A program made the position numbers and the translations under genes. From a virus, in IMG/VR virus record IMGVR_UViG_3300011253_000512, positions 1-29,481 of that record: a stretch of 29,481 nucleotides of DNA, one strand, 5' to 3'. Below the pieces are notes generated by a model, which was not told where the DNA came from, did no database searches, and saw only the letters and a list, made by a program, of their open reading frames with translations. Positions 5,397 to 27,588 of the stretch are shown piece after piece; the stretch's first letter is position 1; each line of letters begins with the position of its first letter.

Positions 5397-5696
5397 TTAT
5401 CTTATTTTATAAAATAGCCAAGCCTTTTCATCTCTTGGTTTACATACTACCATAGTTTCATTTCCTACATAGTAACAAAGCGTATAGTTGTCTAAGGTGT
5501 CTTTTCTTATTATAAACATCTCTTGCTCTGTAACCTCTATTATGCCTTTTGCTAATGTGGTTTTGTCTTTGGTGAATCTCTTAAAGATGTTCTCTGTTAT
5601 ATTTACATACTCCCCCTCTTGGCTAATCCACAAACCTGAAACATCTTGTTGGGCAAATGTTAAAGTACTAAGCAGTATAAAAATTAGTTTCTTCAT
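5397..5696 (-). CDS. Small secreted protein of unknown function
   Basis: A 99-residue protein with a clear Sec signal peptide: Lys-Lys, a hydrophobic core (LIFILLSTLTF) and a likely signal peptidase I cut after A15 (TFA-QQ), a style common in flavobacteria. The mature part of about 84 residues starts with DVSGLWISQEGEYVNI and looks beta-rich; it has a faint resemblance to small lipocalin-like secreted domains, which I cannot confirm. Its ATG overlaps the TAA of the LamG fibre gene (TAATG at 5696), so it is translated with the fibre gene. A secreted host-type protein among tail genes is unusual. It might act in the periplasm, for example in superinfection exclusion or surface modification, but this is a guess. 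Confidence 0.7.
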   Translation of the reverse strand: MKKLIFILLSTLTFAQQDVSGLWISQEGEYVNITENIFKRFTKDKTTLAKGIIEVTEQEMFIIRKDTLDNYTLCYYVGNETMVVCKPRDEKAWLFYKIR

Positions 5697-8074
5697 TACT
5701 TAAATGCCATATAGATAAATGTAACCTCACTATTGTTTAAGTCACTAGCTGTTGTATTTAATGTAAATCCATTTGAATTTAAAACCACATATGTACCTGT
5801 TAATTCAGCTCCTGCACTATTTGCTATTAACTGGTCGCTATAAGGTGATGTTAATCTCTTGTCATCAAACATATACCAACTTGCTGAAGCAGATGAAGCT
5901 TTAATCATTACAAAAGAAGGCTGAAAACCTCCACTACCAGTTGATGTGTCATCATCAGTAACGTATATAGTATGACCAGCAACACCTGTTCCTAAATAAC
6001 TCCCTATCTTACTATATCCGCTTACTGAATGGAAGCAGTAGGCTATCATAGTATTTCCACTACCATTAGCTACACTTGCAGAACCAACAGAAAAAACGCT
6101 ACTTGTGGGGTCTGTATTGTTGAATGCTGTACTTGCGGTTTGAAAATCATCAGTTAGATTTAATTTTCCATACTTTGTAGCACCCACACTACTTGAATAT
6201 ACAGTCCAGTTTTTAACAGCACTTGCATTCTTAATTATTATTAATTCTGGTGTATCTATTCCGTGTCCAATAGTAGCATTAGCCTCTGTACCAGTCCATT
6301 TAACAATACTAAATCCTGCAGATGGGTTCGCACTCACATCTGAAGATATTGAAGGAGTAGAGCCTGTAATAGAATTTACTCCGATATTAACCGCATCGCC
6401 TCCGCCTTTCCAACACCACCCTACGTATGAATCTCCGTTTCTATTGGTAAAATTATTATTATTTGTTAAAGAAAAACCGTTAGAATCAAAACTTGTAACA
6501 TCAGAGCCGCTATTTTCTGCGTTTGTTGCATTAGAATACAATATTTGACTTGAGCCTCTTACAGAGTCCATAAGTCCGTGCCACTCTGCTACAAATCTAT
6601 CTTTTATCCAAACCAAATCAGGTTGGAATCCTACATTAGAAATATATTGCGTACCACCATTCCCCTCATACAACACCGCCTTAAAGTTAGATGTATCTAC
6701 TTCAGGTTTTTCGTTGTATAGTTCTGTTACTTGGCTTGATGAAAGGGCAGCATCGTAGATTCTTACTTGGTCTATTGAACCATCAAAAAATTCTAAATTA
6801 GAGGCAGTATAAGAAAATTGACCTATCCAAGTTGGCCGTGTAGCTGTTCCTGTAAATGATTGAGAACCTGTCAATACAGGTGTTGTATTTCCGTCTATAT
6901 AAACATTATATGAGCCATTATTTAATGTCATAACTACGTTATGCCAGTTTCCATCTGCATAATTAATTGTACCATCAACACTAGCACTTAAATTCAATCT
7001 TATATATCCATTAGAAGTTAATCCTAAAAAATAACCTGTTTCTCCGCTATTTGCACCGCCATTATTTATTAAAGCAGCAGTACCACTATGTCCTGCTGTT
7101 TTAAACCATAAAGAAACACTTATAACAGATGAATTATTTGAGGAATTATTTCCTAAATCTATCTTACTACTACTCCCATTAAACACCGCCGCTTGACCAA
7201 AACGCCCAAACCTGTATTCTATATTATATTCAGTACCATCATTTGTTCCTTTAGAATCCTCTGCTGAATTATCTAATTTGTAGTATGCAGCATTTGTTGT
7301 AGGATAATCACTATCAGTCGTAGTTGCAGTATATACACAAGCGGTTTCTGCGAAAAGAGCAGACACTTCTCCATTTGTTGTTTCATTTAACGCTTTAGAG
7401 AATATTCTTACTTGGTCAATTTCCCCTAGCCAATTGTAATTTGCCCCTGCACTGTAATTTAAATCTCCAATTACACCCGTTGCACCTGAGGGGTAAGAAG
7501 ATGAAACCGATACTGTTTCCGTATCTTGTAAAGAACCATTAATATAAAACTTAGTTACATTAGTAGAATCATCTCTTGTAAAACAAACGTGATACCAAGT
7601 TGATTGAGTTAGTGTATAGGTGTGTGTTAATACATTGGAATTAGATGAAGTACCGTTCCCACTTCTGACCTGCCATTCTCCATTACTAGGTTTATAATAA
7701 ATTGATAATGTTCCTGCATATCCATTTGCATCTGTATTAATTTCTATAAACCTTATTCTATTTGAAGTTGTTGTATTTCCTAAATTAACCCATCCTGAAA
7801 CAGACACATCGGCAGTCAATCCTGTAAGTTTAGGCAATGCTATCCGACTACTACTCCCATTAAATCTCGCTCCATAGTTTATTTGACCATCTACTCCGAA
7901 GTCAACGTCAGTAGGGCTGCCTGAATAGTCAGTACCATCAGGGGCAGTACTTGCATCGTAGTCAAGATTGTAAAGAGCAACACCACTTGAATCGCCAAAT
8001 GGGTCTGTGGAATCAGTACTACAAGCCGCTGCTGCTGCCGCACCGGTACTAATTAATCTTTTATTTAAACTCAT
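5696..8074 (-). CDS. Fibre/appendage protein with two LamG-type domains and a C-terminal phage domain
   Basis: 792 residues. After a short Ala-rich leader (ISTGAAAAAACSTDSTDPFG) come two concanavalin A/LamG-like jelly-roll domains, about residues 35-240 and 250-455. Each has the hallmark FNGSSS near its start, W-Y-H/N-W-H-N-V in the middle and DQVRIF or DQVRIY at the end. The C-terminal 335 residues (from about 455: NVGFQPDLVWIKDR, GYVGWCWKGGG-like pattern, VKWTGTEANATIGHG, TFIYMAF) resemble a module widespread in fibre proteins of marine phages. LamG folds bind glycans, so receptor or polysaccharide binding is likely. Codon choice looks poorer in GC than in the neighbouring tail genes, which hints at separate acquisition together with the next gene. 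It starts 1 base after the stop of gene 8076-8633. Confidence 0.82.
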   Translation of the reverse strand: MSLNKRLISTGAAAAAACSTDSTDPFGDSSGVALYNLDYDASTAPDGTDYSGSPTDVDFGVDGQINYGARFNGSSSRIALPKLTGLTADVSVSGWVNLGNTTTSNRIRFIEINTDANGYAGTLSIYYKPSNGEWQVRSGNGTSSNSNVLTHTYTLTQSTWYHVCFTRDDSTNVTKFYINGSLQDTETVSVSSSYPSGATGVIGDLNYSAGANYNWLGEIDQVRIFSKALNETTNGEVSALFAETACVYTATTTDSDYPTTNAAYYKLDNSAEDSKGTNDGTEYNIEYRFGRFGQAAVFNGSSSKIDLGNNSSNNSSVISVSLWFKTAGHSGTAALINNGGANSGETGYFLGLTSNGYIRLNLSASVDGTINYADGNWHNVVMTLNNGSYNVYIDGNTTPVLTGSQSFTGTATRPTWIGQFSYTASNLEFFDGSIDQVRIYDAALSSSQVTELYNEKPEVDTSNFKAVLYEGNGGTQYISNVGFQPDLVWIKDRFVAEWHGLMDSVRGSSQILYSNATNAENSGSDVTSFDSNGFSLTNNNNFTNRNGDSYVGWCWKGGGDAVNIGVNSITGSTPSISSDVSANPSAGFSIVKWTGTEANATIGHGIDTPELIIIKNASAVKNWTVYSSSVGATKYGKLNLTDDFQTASTAFNNTDPTSSVFSVGSASVANGSGNTMIAYCFHSVSGYSKIGSYLGTGVAGHTIYVTDDDTSTGSGGFQPSFVMIKASSASASWYMFDDKRLTSPYSDQLIANSAGAELTGTYVVLNSNGFTLNTTASDLNNSEVTFIYMAFK

Positions 8075-21577: not shown

Positions 21578-22047
21578 TAAAATAGTTTTAGTTGGTTTTT
21601 GTTTTTTAATTTGTAATGATGCAAACTATTTTCGGATGCAGTTGACCACTCTAAATTTTCTAATTTATTATTTAAGGGATTTCCATCTAAATGGTTAACC
21701 ATTCTGTAAATATTTTTATCGGGATTATTTAAAAAAGTACAAGCAACAATTCTATGGACATAAAAATTTTTATAACCCATTCTGTTTTTTTTACTCCAAT
21801 GCCTTTTTGATTGATAAATCATTTCTTGAGTTGTAATGGCATTTTTTAAAGCGACTTGACAATAATTACCACGATGATTATTAGGTTGTACTTTTTTAAA
21901 TCTATTTAATTTTACACTCCAAACTTGACCAAGGCGATTGACTAAATAATCATCAAAACACAATTCAATTAAATCATTTCGCCAAACCTTAATTTTAACA
22001 AGTTCTTTATCTACTTTATTATCAAATAAATCTAATTGTCTATTCAT
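21577..22047 (-). CDS. HNH endonuclease with NUMOD4-like N-terminus (homing-type)
   Basis: 156 residues. The N-terminal part shows FDDYLVNRLGQVWSVKLNRFK, a NUMOD4-like layout. The HNH_3 core reads YVHRIVACTFLNNPD, then VNHLDGNPLNNKLENLEW and STASENSLHHY, with the catalytic His in the first and the Asn/His cluster in the second. I place the start at ATG 22047, overlapping the helicase stop (TGATG); a TTG three bases upstream would add one residue. Such genes are usually free-standing homing endonucleases. It is embedded in a coupled chain between helicase and small genes, so its insertion has kept the chain intact. Confidence 0.88.
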   Translation of the reverse strand: MNRQLDLFDNKVDKELVKIKVWRNDLIELCFDDYLVNRLGQVWSVKLNRFKKVQPNNHRGNYCQVALKNAITTQEMIYQSKRHWSKKNRMGYKNFYVHRIVACTFLNNPDKNIYRMVNHLDGNPLNNKLENLEWSTASENSLHHYKLKNKNQLKLF

Positions 22048-23720
22048 CAAAAAGGTATTGTGTCTTTTACGACTGTAATTCTGTTTTTCTTTTCATCGAT
22101 AGGTTTATACACCCCACCATTTTTAAAATCAGGTGCCACGGTGAAATATCCTTGTTTTCCGTTTTCTTTTCTTTTTACCTTTTGGATATGTACTTGCACC
22201 GAATCGGATTCATATTTTGTCATTTCGCCAATTGACCGGTAAACCGTTAAGCAATTATAAGACTTATTAAAAAAGTCAGATGAACCACTTATATCATAAG
22301 GTGTTGGTATTTTGAAAATGCCATTGTCGGATTCCATTTTTCTTGGGTGTGCAACCAAAAAAAGATGTGTGTTTGTTTGTTGTACAAATTGGGTAATTTC
22401 CGAAAGTACCCGACCGACATAGGAATGGTCTTTTTGTGCCGAATGGTCAAGCATATTCCAAGGGTCTATTGTTAAAACGTTGACCCCTTTTTGAAATACG
22501 AGTTCCCGGAATTTATCAAGTATTGATTTTAGTGTTAGATTTTGAAGGTCTATTTTTACAAAATAAAAATGCTCTTCAATAAAGTTTTTTGTTCGGTTAA
22601 GGTCATCAGTTGTGCAATGCTTTTCATTTAGTTTGTTTGCCAATCGTTTTATATGGCTTTCATATGGAAATGATTCAGGGGAAAAGTATGCCGTTCTAAA
22701 TCCATATTTAAGTGCAAGATTGCAAGATATTTGATCGACAAAATCCGATTTTCCCGAATTGGGTATTCCGGTAATGGTTGACCACTCCCCAAAAGCCATT
22801 TTAAACCACTCATCCGAGTCTGCAAGTTGAATTGAATAATTGACTATCCCTTTTTCATTATAGTTGATTACATCTTGCCAAATGTCGTTGATGTTTATCA
22901 CCCCCTCAAGAGGAAATGATTTGGTTTCTTTTAATATTGACCGAAGTGTTTCAGCACCTTTTTCCGTTAATACCTCGTTAGCATCTTTATACTCTCCAAA
23001 GTCAACATATTTACAACGGTAATTTCCAAACCTTCTTGCGAGTTCATTTCTAAGTGATAAACCGGCATCATCGTTGTCGGTGCATAATACTATTTCTTTT
23101 TTGTCTGTAAAGTATTCAAAACAGTTGTCAAGATACTCAAGGCGTTGGTTTCCTTTAGATGCACCATTGGGAACACTACAAACGGAATAAATCCCTGCCT
23201 CCGATAGCGACAATGCATCCATTTCCCCTTCAACGATATAAATAGTGTCCATTTCTTTGATGTTGTCAATGCCGTAAAATATCAGTTCTGCACCGCTTAC
23301 CATTTTAAAATTCTTTTCACCATCCCGGAATTTGGTGTTTATCAGTTCGCCATTTCTATGGTAATTGAAATTTATAGCTTTTCGCCTTTTATCTACTTGG
23401 GGAAAATATTCGGTTGATTCGCCAATTTTCCAATGGAATAGTGTTGCCGTAGATATACCCCTTTTAGAAAACCATCCGATTGTCCGATCAGATAATTCAA
23501 TTTTTGTTTCAACCGGTTTTATGTATTCCTTTTTCGGCTTGAATTTTACATTGCCCGACCAATTACAATGGTGGCAATTGTAAACCCCTTTTTCAATATT
23601 TACCGACAAACAAGGGTCGGATTTGTTTTTTCTTGTGTGAGAACACTTTGGACATTTTGTTTTTTGTACGTTGGCGTTGGATTTAAGTTCAATGCCAAGA
23701 CTTAGAAATTCATCAATCAT
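22047..23720 (-). CDS. Primase-helicase (TOPRIM primase fused to DnaB-like helicase)
   Basis: 557 residues, resembling T7 gp4/Twinkle-type proteins. An N-terminal zinc ribbon uses C23/C26 and C49/C52. The TOPRIM domain has VEGEMDAL at 163-170 and DNDDAG at 215-220. The helicase has Walker A GIPNSGKS at 318-325, Walker B VLTIDPWN near 414-422 and LVAHPRK at 455-461. It primes and unwinds DNA at the fork. The last residues (VVKDTIPF) resemble the acidic-hydrophobic tail of bacterial SSB. Start ATG overlaps the upstream nuclease gene by 8 bases. Confidence 0.93.
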   Translation of the reverse strand: MIDEFLSLGIELKSNANVQKTKCPKCSHTRKNKSDPCLSVNIEKGVYNCHHCNWSGNVKFKPKKEYIKPVETKIELSDRTIGWFSKRGISTATLFHWKIGESTEYFPQVDKRRKAINFNYHRNGELINTKFRDGEKNFKMVSGAELIFYGIDNIKEMDTIYIVEGEMDALSLSEAGIYSVCSVPNGASKGNQRLEYLDNCFEYFTDKKEIVLCTDNDDAGLSLRNELARRFGNYRCKYVDFGEYKDANEVLTEKGAETLRSILKETKSFPLEGVININDIWQDVINYNEKGIVNYSIQLADSDEWFKMAFGEWSTITGIPNSGKSDFVDQISCNLALKYGFRTAYFSPESFPYESHIKRLANKLNEKHCTTDDLNRTKNFIEEHFYFVKIDLQNLTLKSILDKFRELVFQKGVNVLTIDPWNMLDHSAQKDHSYVGRVLSEITQFVQQTNTHLFLVAHPRKMESDNGIFKIPTPYDISGSSDFFNKSYNCLTVYRSIGEMTKYESDSVQVHIQKVKRKENGKQGYFTVAPDFKNGGVYKPIDEKKNRITVVKDTIPF

Positions 23721-24156
23721 TTAATTTAAGTTTTAATAAGTTTAGTTGGTGGTGAAAATTAATAATTTCTTTTCGAATTTTTATATCTGAATGCGGAAAA
23801 TCTTTTGATGTTTGTTTATTCATTCGGATTCGCTCTATTTTTCCCATCTGAAAAATATCATCAACCTTGAAAAGAAATCCATCATTTCCAACGACAATCA
23901 TCAAATATATCCTGAGCGGGTCTTTTGTTTTATGTTTTAATTTTCTGAGATTGTCAATCTTTTGTTTTTCGATATACCATCGATCCCACATTTCAGATCG
24001 TTCCTTGACCTCCACAATCGTTTTGACATTGTTTGTGTATCCATAAATATCAAAGGGCGAAAACTCATCATCTGACATCTTAAAATCGCCATATTTTGAA
24101 AGTGCATCCAAACACCTTTTTTCAGTTTCCCTTGTTTTATTTTTATTGTAATGCAT
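23713..24156 (-). CDS. PD-(D/E)XK-like nuclease (E-V-K motif), possibly a resolvase
   Basis: 147 residues from ATG 24156 (MHYNKNKTRETEKRCLDA); a longer frame from 24174 would add six residues inside the preceding gene. E12, D36 in SPFDIYGYTNN, and E49-V-K51 in TIVEVKERSE give the E/D/E-x-K layout of the PD-(D/E)XK fold. The order and length suit a small nuclease such as a Holliday junction resolvase that resolves concatemers before packaging, but the identity is not proven. It lies between the initiator and the helicase and overlaps both. Confidence 0.68.
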   Translation of the reverse strand: MHYNKNKTRETEKRCLDALSKYGDFKMSDDEFSPFDIYGYTNNVKTIVEVKERSEMWDRWYIEKQKIDNLRKLKHKTKDPLRIYLMIVVGNDGFLFKVDDIFQMGKIERIRMNKQTSKDFPHSDIKIRKEIINFHHQLNLLKLKLND

Positions 24157-24841
24157 CAAATTCCCTTCCTCCAAGCTTTTGAATCAGTTGTTCTAATTTT
24201 GGAAGTTTACCCTCTTTTGATTTTCTTAATTCCGGAATGCTTAAAACATTTTTTTCCCAAAATGAATCTTTTCTTGCTTTATTCACTATCCACCAAAGTT
24301 GCCTTGGGTTGCAATTATCTTTTTCATCTGCCAATCTAATAGTATCAAGCCATTTAATTTTTTGTGCCGTTGTTTTTGGTCTTGTTCTTTGAGGAAACAA
24401 TTCAATTATGGCATCATAACATTTAATATAGTTGTCCGCAAAATCAGACACTTTTTTGCTTGTTTTTGATTTGCGGTTATTAATATTTATAATATTATTA
24501 CTATTTACTATACTATTATCTAGGACATTTTTGTCTATACCCTCCCGACAATTTTGTCGTGACCTCCCGACAATTTTGACTATACGTTCAATGATTTTAT
24601 TTTCTGAATCTCTTTTAATTGTTACTGTTATATAATTACAGTTTTTAAGGTCTGTAATCCATCTTGTAATTGTTCTTTTATCTACTTTATACAACTTAGC
24701 GAAATAATCATTTAATGCCCAACATTTGCCATTCTTACCTGATAGGGCGGTAATTTCACCATAAAGCAATTTGGAGTTTGGAGTCAATCGGTCATCATAC
24801 CGAACATCTGCCGGTATAATTGCATAATAGTTTGGTTTCAT
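24143..24841 (-). CDS. Replication initiator/replisome organiser with winged-helix domain
   Basis: 232 residues. The N-terminal HTH (YYAIIPADVRYDDRLTPNSK, then LLYGEITALSGKNGKCWALND, and KRTITRWITDLKNCNYI) is of the helix-turn-helix type used by phage initiators. The linker is Asn/Ile-rich (DNSIVNSNNIININN), and the C-terminal part (about 130-232) is helical, like a helicase-loader domain. Its coding sequence contains three 22-23 base repeats (24522-24580) beside an AT-rich stretch, as in phage lambda O and lactococcal initiators that bind in their own gene. It probably recruits the host or phage helicase. Confidence 0.8.
   Translation of the reverse strand: MKPNYYAIIPADVRYDDRLTPNSKLLYGEITALSGKNGKCWALNDYFAKLYKVDKRTITRWITDLKNCNYITVTIKRDSENKIIERIVKIVGRSRQNCREGIDKNVLDNSIVNSNNIININNRKSKTSKKVSDFADNYIKCYDAIIELFPQRTRPKTTAQKIKWLDTIRLADEKDNCNPRQLWWIVNKARKDSFWEKNVLSIPELRKSKEGKLPKLEQLIQKLGGREFDALQ
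24470..24580. other. Candidate replication origin inside the initiator gene (iterons plus AT-rich zone)
   Basis: CCTCCCGACAATTTTG occurs at 24541-24556 and 24563-24578, each followed by GTC or GAC, and a degenerate third unit (AGGACATTTTTGTC) is at 24522-24535. In mRNA sense the units are GTCAAAATTGTC, GACAAAATTGTC and GACAAAAATGTC, starting at 24580, 24558 and 24535, so 22 and 23 bases apart (about two helical turns). Each has a palindromic core. An AT-only stretch (24476-24522) flanks them and could unwind. Confidence 0.6.
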
Positions 24842-25098: not shown

Positions 25099-25184
25099 TT
25101 GCTGAACATTAAAATTAAAACTGCAACACTCATAATCAAAGCATATATACCACTAAAATACTCAAATGTTTCCAAAATATTCAT
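25095..25184 (-). CDS. Tiny membrane peptide (29 residues)
   Basis: ATG 25184-25182 lies within the last codons of the VRR-NUC gene and TGA 25097-25095 overlaps the next ATG (ATGA). The product MNILETFEYFSGIY plus ALIMSVAVLILMFSK is a single-pass hydrophobic helix of about 17 residues with a short polar N-terminus. Perfect fit between two neighbours supports it as a real gene, although no function is known. Confidence 0.55.
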   Translation of the reverse strand: MNILETFEYFSGIYALIMSVAVLILMFSK

Positions 25185-25530
25185 CTATTAAATTTTTACA
25201 GTCATCAAAATCATAAGAAATGCTAGTTTTCCAATTCTTATTTTCAAGCGTTTTAAGACACTTTTGTTGGTTTTCGGTAGGCTTGTTTGGCTTTATCTTT
25301 AATTCGATCGCTAAACCATTAAAATCGGCATTAGAATCAAAGCAAAGGACGTCAGGGACACCAGCAACCCCTCCAAGTTTTTTAAACTTAAATCTTTCAT
25401 ACGGTGTTCGCTTTCCCTCATTTGGACAATGAATCACAAATGCATCCGGGTATTGCAGTTTAAAATAGTTCATCACGGCGTTTTGAAATATGTCCTCTTT
25501 AGTTAAATATTTATTGAAATTATTGGGCAT
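25162..25530 (-). CDS. VRR-NUC domain nuclease
   Basis: 122 residues covering a whole VRR-NUC domain: IHCPNEGKRTPYERFKFKKL, then GVAGVPDVLCFD with the catalytic D60, and AIELK with E76 and K78, followed by ENQQKCLKTLENKNW. This family acts in DNA junction resolution and repair in phages and hosts. It overlaps the upstream DnaA-like gene by 11 bases and the downstream membrane peptide by 23 bases. Confidence 0.9.
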   Translation of the reverse strand: MPNNFNKYLTKEDIFQNAVMNYFKLQYPDAFVIHCPNEGKRTPYERFKFKKLGGVAGVPDVLCFDSNADFNGLAIELKIKPNKPTENQQKCLKTLENKNWKTSISYDFDDCKNLIDEYFGNI

Positions 25531-25891: not shown

Positions 25892-26659
25892 TTATAGTAT
25901 TAAAGAACCATCTTTTGCCATTTCACTCGTTCCATAGCCATTTGCGATTCCAGTTTGTAAATATTCATTCCAATCCTCAAGTGCGTTTTGATATGCAAAA
26001 CGACCCCTTTCAATCATTTCATCGCTTAGTCCATACACAACAACCGAAAACGGATGCTTTGTTTCAATTGCGATAAATCTAAAAGTCTTTGGGTCGAATC
26101 CTAATGCATCGGAATAAAATGCAGCTTGTAAGTGATACCCATAATTGTAAACATCCCTTAAAAACGCTCTTGGCGAATTATCTTGACACGTTTTGATGTC
26201 GCTGATCCAACCATTACCCTTAACATCGGGTCGAACACGAACCGGAACACCATAGTGGAGTCCGTAATGCGATAATTCAATCTCACCCTTTGTGTAATAT
26301 ATTGCCAAATCATTTTGCATAAATTGGCGTTTTATGTTTAAAATAATATTTCCCGGTTGCTCTTTGTCATTGCTGATGTATAAAAGTTCCCTCCCCTTGT
26401 GTTCTTCTTGTTGCTCTTTTCGCTTTTTCATATACCCTTCCCCTCTTGGTATATAATCAACAATGGCATATTTTTTATCAAATTCCTTTGGCTCAAGAAG
26501 TGCCTCGTGTACTGCCGTACCAAGTGCCAATGAATCACTTGAAAAAGGTCTTTGATTTAAATAATGATAAACCGATTTTTTGTGAATTGTTTTTAGACCC
26601 GATGCAGATATTTCAGGTCGGGAATGATAGTTATCGTTTGAGTCCTTTTGTGTTTTCAT
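25892..26659 (-). CDS. RecE-like/PD-(D/E)XK exonuclease
   Basis: 255 residues. The family features are ISASGLKTIHKKSVYHYLNQ, LGTAVHEALLEPKEF with H51, VRVRPDVKGNGWISDIKT with D145 and D154-I-K156, and GYHLQAAFYSDA with Q178. It is the exonuclease partner of the ERF-type annealing protein, forming the phage recombination pair and probably used in concatemer formation. It overlaps the preceding coiled-coil gene by 4 bases (ATGA). Confidence 0.88.
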   Translation of the reverse strand: MKTQKDSNDNYHSRPEISASGLKTIHKKSVYHYLNQRPFSSDSLALGTAVHEALLEPKEFDKKYAIVDYIPRGEGYMKKRKEQQEEHKGRELLYISNDKEQPGNIILNIKRQFMQNDLAIYYTKGEIELSHYGLHYGVPVRVRPDVKGNGWISDIKTCQDNSPRAFLRDVYNYGYHLQAAFYSDALGFDPKTFRFIAIETKHPFSVVVYGLSDEMIERGRFAYQNALEDWNEYLQTGIANGYGTSEMAKDGSLIL

Positions 26660-27165: not shown

Positions 27166-27588
27166 TTAAAATATATTAGTGTTAGAATTAAAATTTGATT
27201 TTGGTGTTTGGGGTTTTTTTCTTGATGCTGAATTGCCATCATCATCATCGGATTGTAATGCCAATAAACTTACTAAAGTGTAACGCCTGAAATATGTTAT
27301 TTCTGAGCCTTTCTTTTGGGCATCTAACCCTTGGGATAGTGGAATGGATGAAACCTCCTCCTCGCCGGTTTCTATGCATCTGATAACGGTTTGAACCTCA
27401 TCCTCAACAATGGGTTGTAGTATGACAACCTGATTCTTTTGAAGTATCGGCAGTATATGGTCTAATAATTTATTTATGTCAAAATACTTTGAACCGTAAA
27501 AATTATTTTTTCCATCTTTTGAAATCTTGCCAATTTCCTTTTGAATTTGGAATAGCTTTGTTGTAATCGATTTGTTTTCACTCATCAT
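27166..27588 (-). CDS. ERF-family single-strand annealing recombinase
   Basis: 140 residues. The family features are IQKEIGKISKDGKNNFYGSK, ILPILQKNQVVILQPIVED and the C-terminal core SEITYFRRYTLVSLLALQSDDDDG. ERF proteins anneal complementary strands in phage recombination. Together with the RecE-like exonuclease and the SSB-like protein it forms a recombination set. The start overlaps the HTH gene (ATGA at 27588); a second ATG lies three bases in. Confidence 0.9.
   Translation of the reverse strand: MMSENKSITTKLFQIQKEIGKISKDGKNNFYGSKYFDINKLLDHILPILQKNQVVILQPIVEDEVQTVIRCIETGEEEVSSIPLSQGLDAQKKGSEITYFRRYTLVSLLALQSDDDDGNSASRKKPQTPKSNFNSNTNIF

Follow-up and report, generated by a model that had tools for sequence, protein, structure and literature searches.

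The 29,481-nucleotide stretch analysed here (the window; positions 1 to 29,481 of the virus record IMGVR_UViG_3300011253_000512) carries the tailed-phage genes for terminase, portal, capsid and prohead protease, together with a replication initiator gene whose own coding sequence holds three iterons and an AT-rich zone. We propose, with a probability of roughly 85%, that this segment serves a marine tailed phage as a self-contained iteron origin, equipped with an unwinding zone, lying inside the initiator gene and bound by the initiator that the gene encodes. Comparison with related genes revealed that two residues of the initiator largely predict the DNA letters that are read, and that the reader domain and the read DNA have been exchanged jointly. 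The components concerned are as follows.

24143..24841, minus strand: replication initiator gene of 232 codons, encoding an HTH_36 winged-helix N-domain, a disordered linker and an O-like/DnaD-like C-domain.
24641..24679, minus strand: recognition helix, codons 55-67, predicted as a helix in the AlphaFold2 model.
24674-24676 and 24662-24664, minus strand: Arg56 and Arg60, respectively, the residues that predict iteron letters.
24569..24580, minus strand: iteron 1, GTCAAAATTGTC, starting at 24580 in mRNA sense and encoding VKIV.
24547..24558, minus strand: iteron 2, GACAAAATTGTC, the perfect consensus, starting at 24558 in a shifted frame and encoding RQNC.
24524..24535, minus strand: iteron 3, GACAAAAATGTC, starting at 24535 and encoding DKNV.
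24477..24520, minus strand: AT zone, a likely DNA unwinding element judging by its AT composition and its conservation in kin.
24146..24454, minus strand: C-domain, the presumed helicase/primase-loading part according to its O-like matches.
22047..23720, minus strand: primase-helicase (Toprim + DnaB-like; phrog_239, E 1.4e-88; Toprim_2), the likely partner, downstream in transcription.

The initiator protein matches HTH_36 (PF13730) with an E-value of 1.8e-13 and 50.5 bits, above the curated cut-off of 25, and its PHROG matches include phrog_19658 and phrog_270 (replication initiation protein). The C-terminal part matches the O-like families phrog_391 (E 1.4e-11, residues 142-207) and phrog_277 (E 2.9e-5). 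Residues 93-127 have a predicted local distance difference test score (pLDDT) below 50 in the AlphaFold2 model, leaving an Asn-rich and disordered linker that is encoded by the repeats. The sequence-only reading had placed three palindromic cores at 24580, 24558 and 24535, 22 and 23 bases apart, next to an AT-only stretch in the linker region of a winged-helix initiator gene. The starts and spacings proved exact, the strictly AT-only run was located at 24477-24500 (24 nt), and the HTH_36 match and the low-pLDDT linker bear out the position within the gene.

The three iterons are 12-bp near-palindromes, and copies 1 and 2 have in common an exact 16-nt repeat, CAAAATTGTCGGGAGG. Words with at most one mismatch from GACAAAATTGTC occur at only these three places in all 29,481 bases; with two mismatches allowed, 7 were found versus 6.6 expected genome-wide, which is the chance level. 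The iteron signal lies in clustering and quality, not in the bare word. A search for word clustering with copy 1 as the reference and at most one mismatch detected no cluster, as two bases distinguish copy 1 from copy 3. A 60-nt stretch around the AT-only run is 83% AT, compared with 68% for the whole gene. The GC skew of the window gave no origin signal, the main genes all lying on the minus strand and the cumulative curve simply falling.

Selection acts on the iterons and the AT zone at the level of DNA. Since the spacings are 22 and 23, the copies fall in two reading frames and encode unrelated peptides, so the repeats are DNA repeats rather than peptide repeats. Furthermore, in a set of close kin comprising 9 distinct sequences with 92-97% protein identity, codons 87-126, which cover the iterons and the AT zone, have 0 synonymous changes at 25 synonymous sites, compared with 66 synonymously changed codons per 114 sites over the remainder of the gene (Fisher p 1e-8); both flanks of the segment vary among these kin. 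It is thus as DNA that both the iterons and the AT zone are conserved. Decay of the repeats in close relatives had been named beforehand as the outcome that would speak against an origin at this place, and no such decay was found among the 9 sequences.

The same organization recurs across the family. We collected 214 non-redundant HTH_36 initiator genes (less than 93% identity) from viral and genome collections and scanned them with a protein-blind dyad detector, which requires a six-base arm, an A- or T-rich four and a six-base arm in at least two similar copies. Linker sites in at least two copies were identified in 95 of the 214 genes (44%), versus 3.8% in synonymous shuffles of the same genes, and at least three copies in 45 genes, versus 0.4% in the shuffles; the HTH-coding part of the same genes has none (0/214). 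Neighboring copies are spaced by 22 bp in 39 cases, 23 bp in 39 and 24 bp in 33, with 30% of spacings divisible by 3. As these three spacings are nearly equally common, the reading frame is irrelevant and a distance of about two helical turns is what counts. The 60 nt past the last iteron are 75% AT versus 63% for the gene (higher in 87 of 94 cases), and their Asn codons are AAT rather than AAC at a ratio of 509:27, compared with 970:481 elsewhere.

Several side observations concern these genes. The AT zones of HTH_36 genes, for example 24477-24520 in the window, contain a trinucleotide-like run of TAA/TAG units (TAATAGTATAGTAAATAGTAATAA), which recalls the DnaA-trio of bacterial oriC and may merely reflect Asn codons. 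Relatives L044-L052, with the helix KTKTTISKW and an unrelated C-domain, have two long sites in inverted orientation (TTAAAGGGGG... / ...CCCCCTTGTCAAAAAGTTAAAGG) instead of three direct repeats. Two HTH_36 initiators lie on archaeal-binned contigs, L103 in a metagenome-assembled genome (MAG) labelled Euryarchaeota and L160, with TTAAAG-AAAT-CTTTAA iterons, in a MAG labelled Borrarchaeum; these may be true archaeal elements or mis-binned phage contigs.

The iteron letters covary with two residues of the recognition helix. Half-site positions are numbered from h1, which adjoins the A-rich centre, to h6, the outermost. Over 72 N-domain columns, mutual information is highest for h4 with residue 56 (Z 17.8) and for h2 with residue 60 (Z 15.7); no other column exceeds 7.8. 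The predicted recognition helix 55-67 contains both residues, one turn apart. In genes with R60, h2 is C in 41 of 45 cases, and with other residues it is mostly A; at h4, R56 goes with G (24/24), E56 with G (11/11) and V56 with A (19/24). The combinations of residues 56 and 60 are freely mixed. R/K56 with R60 gives GAC in 21 of 23 genes and without R60 GAA in 15 of 18, V/I56 without R60 gives AAA in 18 of 22, and E56 with R60 gives GAC in 10 of 11. The window, with R56, R60 and the half-site GACA, is in line with these pairings. Binding of the iterons by the encoded initiator is strongly implied, because the iteron letters covary with its recognition helix. It appears quite likely that a single rule holds for the HTH_36 initiators of phages, and of prophages, across many bacterial phyla, under which residue 56 would determine h4, and residue 60 would determine h2, in an arm-AAAA-arm iteron within the initiator's own gene. 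Each gene would then be a record of a protein and its cognate site, origins and replicon compatibility would be predictable from sequence, and specificity would have changed repeatedly by point changes and cassette exchange. A literature search covering open-licence papers found no description of the two-residue rule or of an in-gene HTH_36 origin, so an earlier description is possible.

A natural exchange of this kind is visible among close relatives of the window. The DNA identity of L012, L013, L015 and L016 to the window is high over the first 60 nt (90-93%), the AT zone (88-94%) and the C-domain (90-95%), but only 50-60% between roughly codon 40 and the last base of the iterons. Their helix is VSKVSISKW, compared with VDKRTITRW in the window, and their iterons are of the AAAGAAAAGTT type, compared with GACAAAATTGTC. 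The L012 protein agrees with that of the window at 94-97% over residues 1-33 and over the C-domain, whereas its residues 34-92 are closer to other lineages. L040-L043 have a different C-domain, yet the helix type and the iteron type of the L012 group. The reader domain and the DNA that it reads have thus been exchanged jointly; being adjacent within a single gene, the two can be transferred as a cassette, with a concerted change of specificity.

Initiator genes that contain their own origin are known from lambda O, SPP1 gp38 and pSK41 Rep (PMC7466680, PMC6316719, PMC5703833). The winged-helix N-domain of pSK41 Rep binds four Rep boxes central in the rep gene, the origin encodes the linker, and the role at the host replisome falls to a distinct C-domain (PMC5703833). 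Residues 1-93 of the window protein match structures of pSK41-type Rep: 4pql_B (Z 9.7, root-mean-square deviation 2.5, 87 aligned), 4pt7 (Z 9.5), 5kbj_H (Z 8.6, a Rep-DNA complex) and 4pta (Z 8.0). These are among the best fold matches, although many other winged helices score nearly alike and the fold alone is not decisive. Foldseek alone gave no structural match for the initiator with E below 0.001, and a PDB sequence search with it found no initiator relative; the statement on fold derives from the second comparison, which gave the Z scores above. RepA_N (PF06970) is not among the Pfam families that the initiator matches at E ≤ 0.1, HTH_36 appearing instead, and the similarity to RepA_N is one of fold only. 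pSK41 Rep is a RepA_N plasmid initiator, whereas the window belongs to a phage and its protein has a lambda-O-like/DnaD-like C-domain. The window shares three features of in-gene iteron origins, namely three direct repeats in the initiator coding sequence, an adjoining AT-rich zone and repeats kept as DNA. It resembles lambda O in the C-terminal profile matches and differs in its HTH_36 N-domain match, the arm-AAAA-arm site plan and the 22-24 bp phasing. SPP1, to which the window is likened through gp38 and oriL, has a second origin, oriR, whereas no second origin was seen in the window.

Two further systems are instructive. Cellulophaga phage phi39:1 gp41 is an HTH_36 initiator whose gene contains three sites, ACGACAAAATTGTC, at spacings of 21 and 22; they have the half-site of the window, and the protein has Arg at both key positions. 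Only its N-domain is clearly similar to the window (59% over 83 aa), and a DnaB-type helicase gene then follows gp41. The RepA_N domain of Vibrio cholerae PLE RepA co-varies with the origin iterons while the C-domain is constant, and cognate pairs are needed for replication, which is genetic proof (PMC8263062). This is the same modular exchange as between the window and the L012 group; the PLE iterons lie outside the repA gene, and the passages considered give no residue-level rule.

The segment is probably a replication origin, in support of the sequence-only reading, because its anatomy is common to lambda O, SPP1 gp38 and pSK41 Rep and its AT zone is conserved. We infer physical binding by the initiator and, by analogy with these three systems, unwinding, helicase loading and origin activity. 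The N-terminal winged helix would bind the three dyad-symmetric sites (six-base arm, A-rich four, six-base arm), and the 22-23 bp spacing, about two helical turns, would allow the bound proteins to stack on one face. Most likely, winged helices, dimeric or stacked, fill the three sites, with Arg60 reading the G opposite the C at h2 and Arg56 reading the G at h4. Iteron binding would then distort or destabilise the adjoining AT zone, and the C-domain would recruit the phage primase-helicase encoded downstream.

Four observations weigh against this interpretation or its extension to the family. Copy 1 departs from the dyad at one arm base. About half of the relatives lack two sites by the strict dyad detector, some having imperfect or single sites. 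The V/I56 and R60 combination is weakly predictive (AAC in 2 of 5). Finally, a small new test set of named phages, plasmids and further genomes, with 12 usable genes, was predicted correctly in 8 of 12 cases at h2 and 8 of 11 at h4 (permutation p 0.011 and 0.037). The value for h2 is the face value, as L500 (Staphylococcus phage 77) is one residue off in the test-set alignment; with L500 in register, R60 goes with C in 7 of 7 genes and C occurs without R60 in 1 of 5. Exceptions among the named phages are L499 (K56, T60) and, for h2, L503 and L504.

The sites could instead be operators through which the initiator limits its own transcription, with the origin elsewhere, since covariation indicates binding by the encoded protein and not in itself origin function. 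We regard this as unlikely: the sites lie some 260 nt into the gene, remote from any promoter that the gene might have, and the window has no second cluster of them. The adjoining AT zone is equally conserved and is retained when the iteron type is exchanged, and the regular stacking of 3-5 sites in an array is characteristic of origins. The residue-base correlations, for their part, could be a by-product of common descent, as the 95 genes form 16 linkage clusters at 70% identity and hence are not independent. When h2 and h4 were predicted from the nearest relative outside the helix, however, 51% and 46% were correct, versus 88% and 80% by the residue rule. Where the two predictors disagreed, the residue was right by 33:2 at h2 and 37:4 at h4 (binomial p 4e-8 and 1e-7). 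Other variable N-domain columns score much lower, and common descent in place of direct reading is a very unlikely explanation.

Every copy is also a short inverted repeat, which would suit a role in the initiator mRNA, as a hairpin or as a signal for translation. Such an RNA-level element is highly improbable: folding of the segment is unremarkable (z -1.28; 23 of 200 shuffles fold equally well), pairing in the best fold is between different copies, and a hairpin leaves unexplained both the arm letters that follow residues 56 and 60 and the 22-24 bp phasing. Selection for a repetitive disordered polypeptide, with the DNA repeats secondary, would fit the disordered, Asn-rich linker but has next to no probability. 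The frame test (unrelated peptides in the window; copies in more than one frame in 57 of 99 multi-copy genes) refutes it as the principal cause, and the loss of the repeats on synonymous shuffling and the absence of synonymous change in kin also speak against it.

Two small nuclease-like genes flank the initiator gene, 25162-25530 and 23713-24174 (both minus strand), with VRR_NUC-like/phrog_824 and weakly Hjc-like matches. Upstream, an Exonuclease VIII-like gene (phrog_412) and an ERF single-strand annealing gene, at 25892-26659 and 27166-27588 (both minus strand), make a complete recombination pair. The gene at 5696-8074 (minus strand) encodes a 792-aa protein that contains DUF7483 (E 4.5e-89) and Laminin_G_3/concanavalin-like repeats and probably acts in the tail or in receptor binding.

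The origin of the window is itself of a known kind, in-gene iteron origins having been described already. With a reader domain and its read site in one gene, however, thousands of natural protein-DNA pairs are obtainable without experiment, and sequence alone suffices to find and test origins of this kind. The joint exchange explains how a phage origin changes its specificity in one recombination step, as between the window and the L012 group. The two-residue rule predicts the origin sequence, the compatibility of origins between phages or between a phage and a satellite, and the exchanges that keep a replicon functional.
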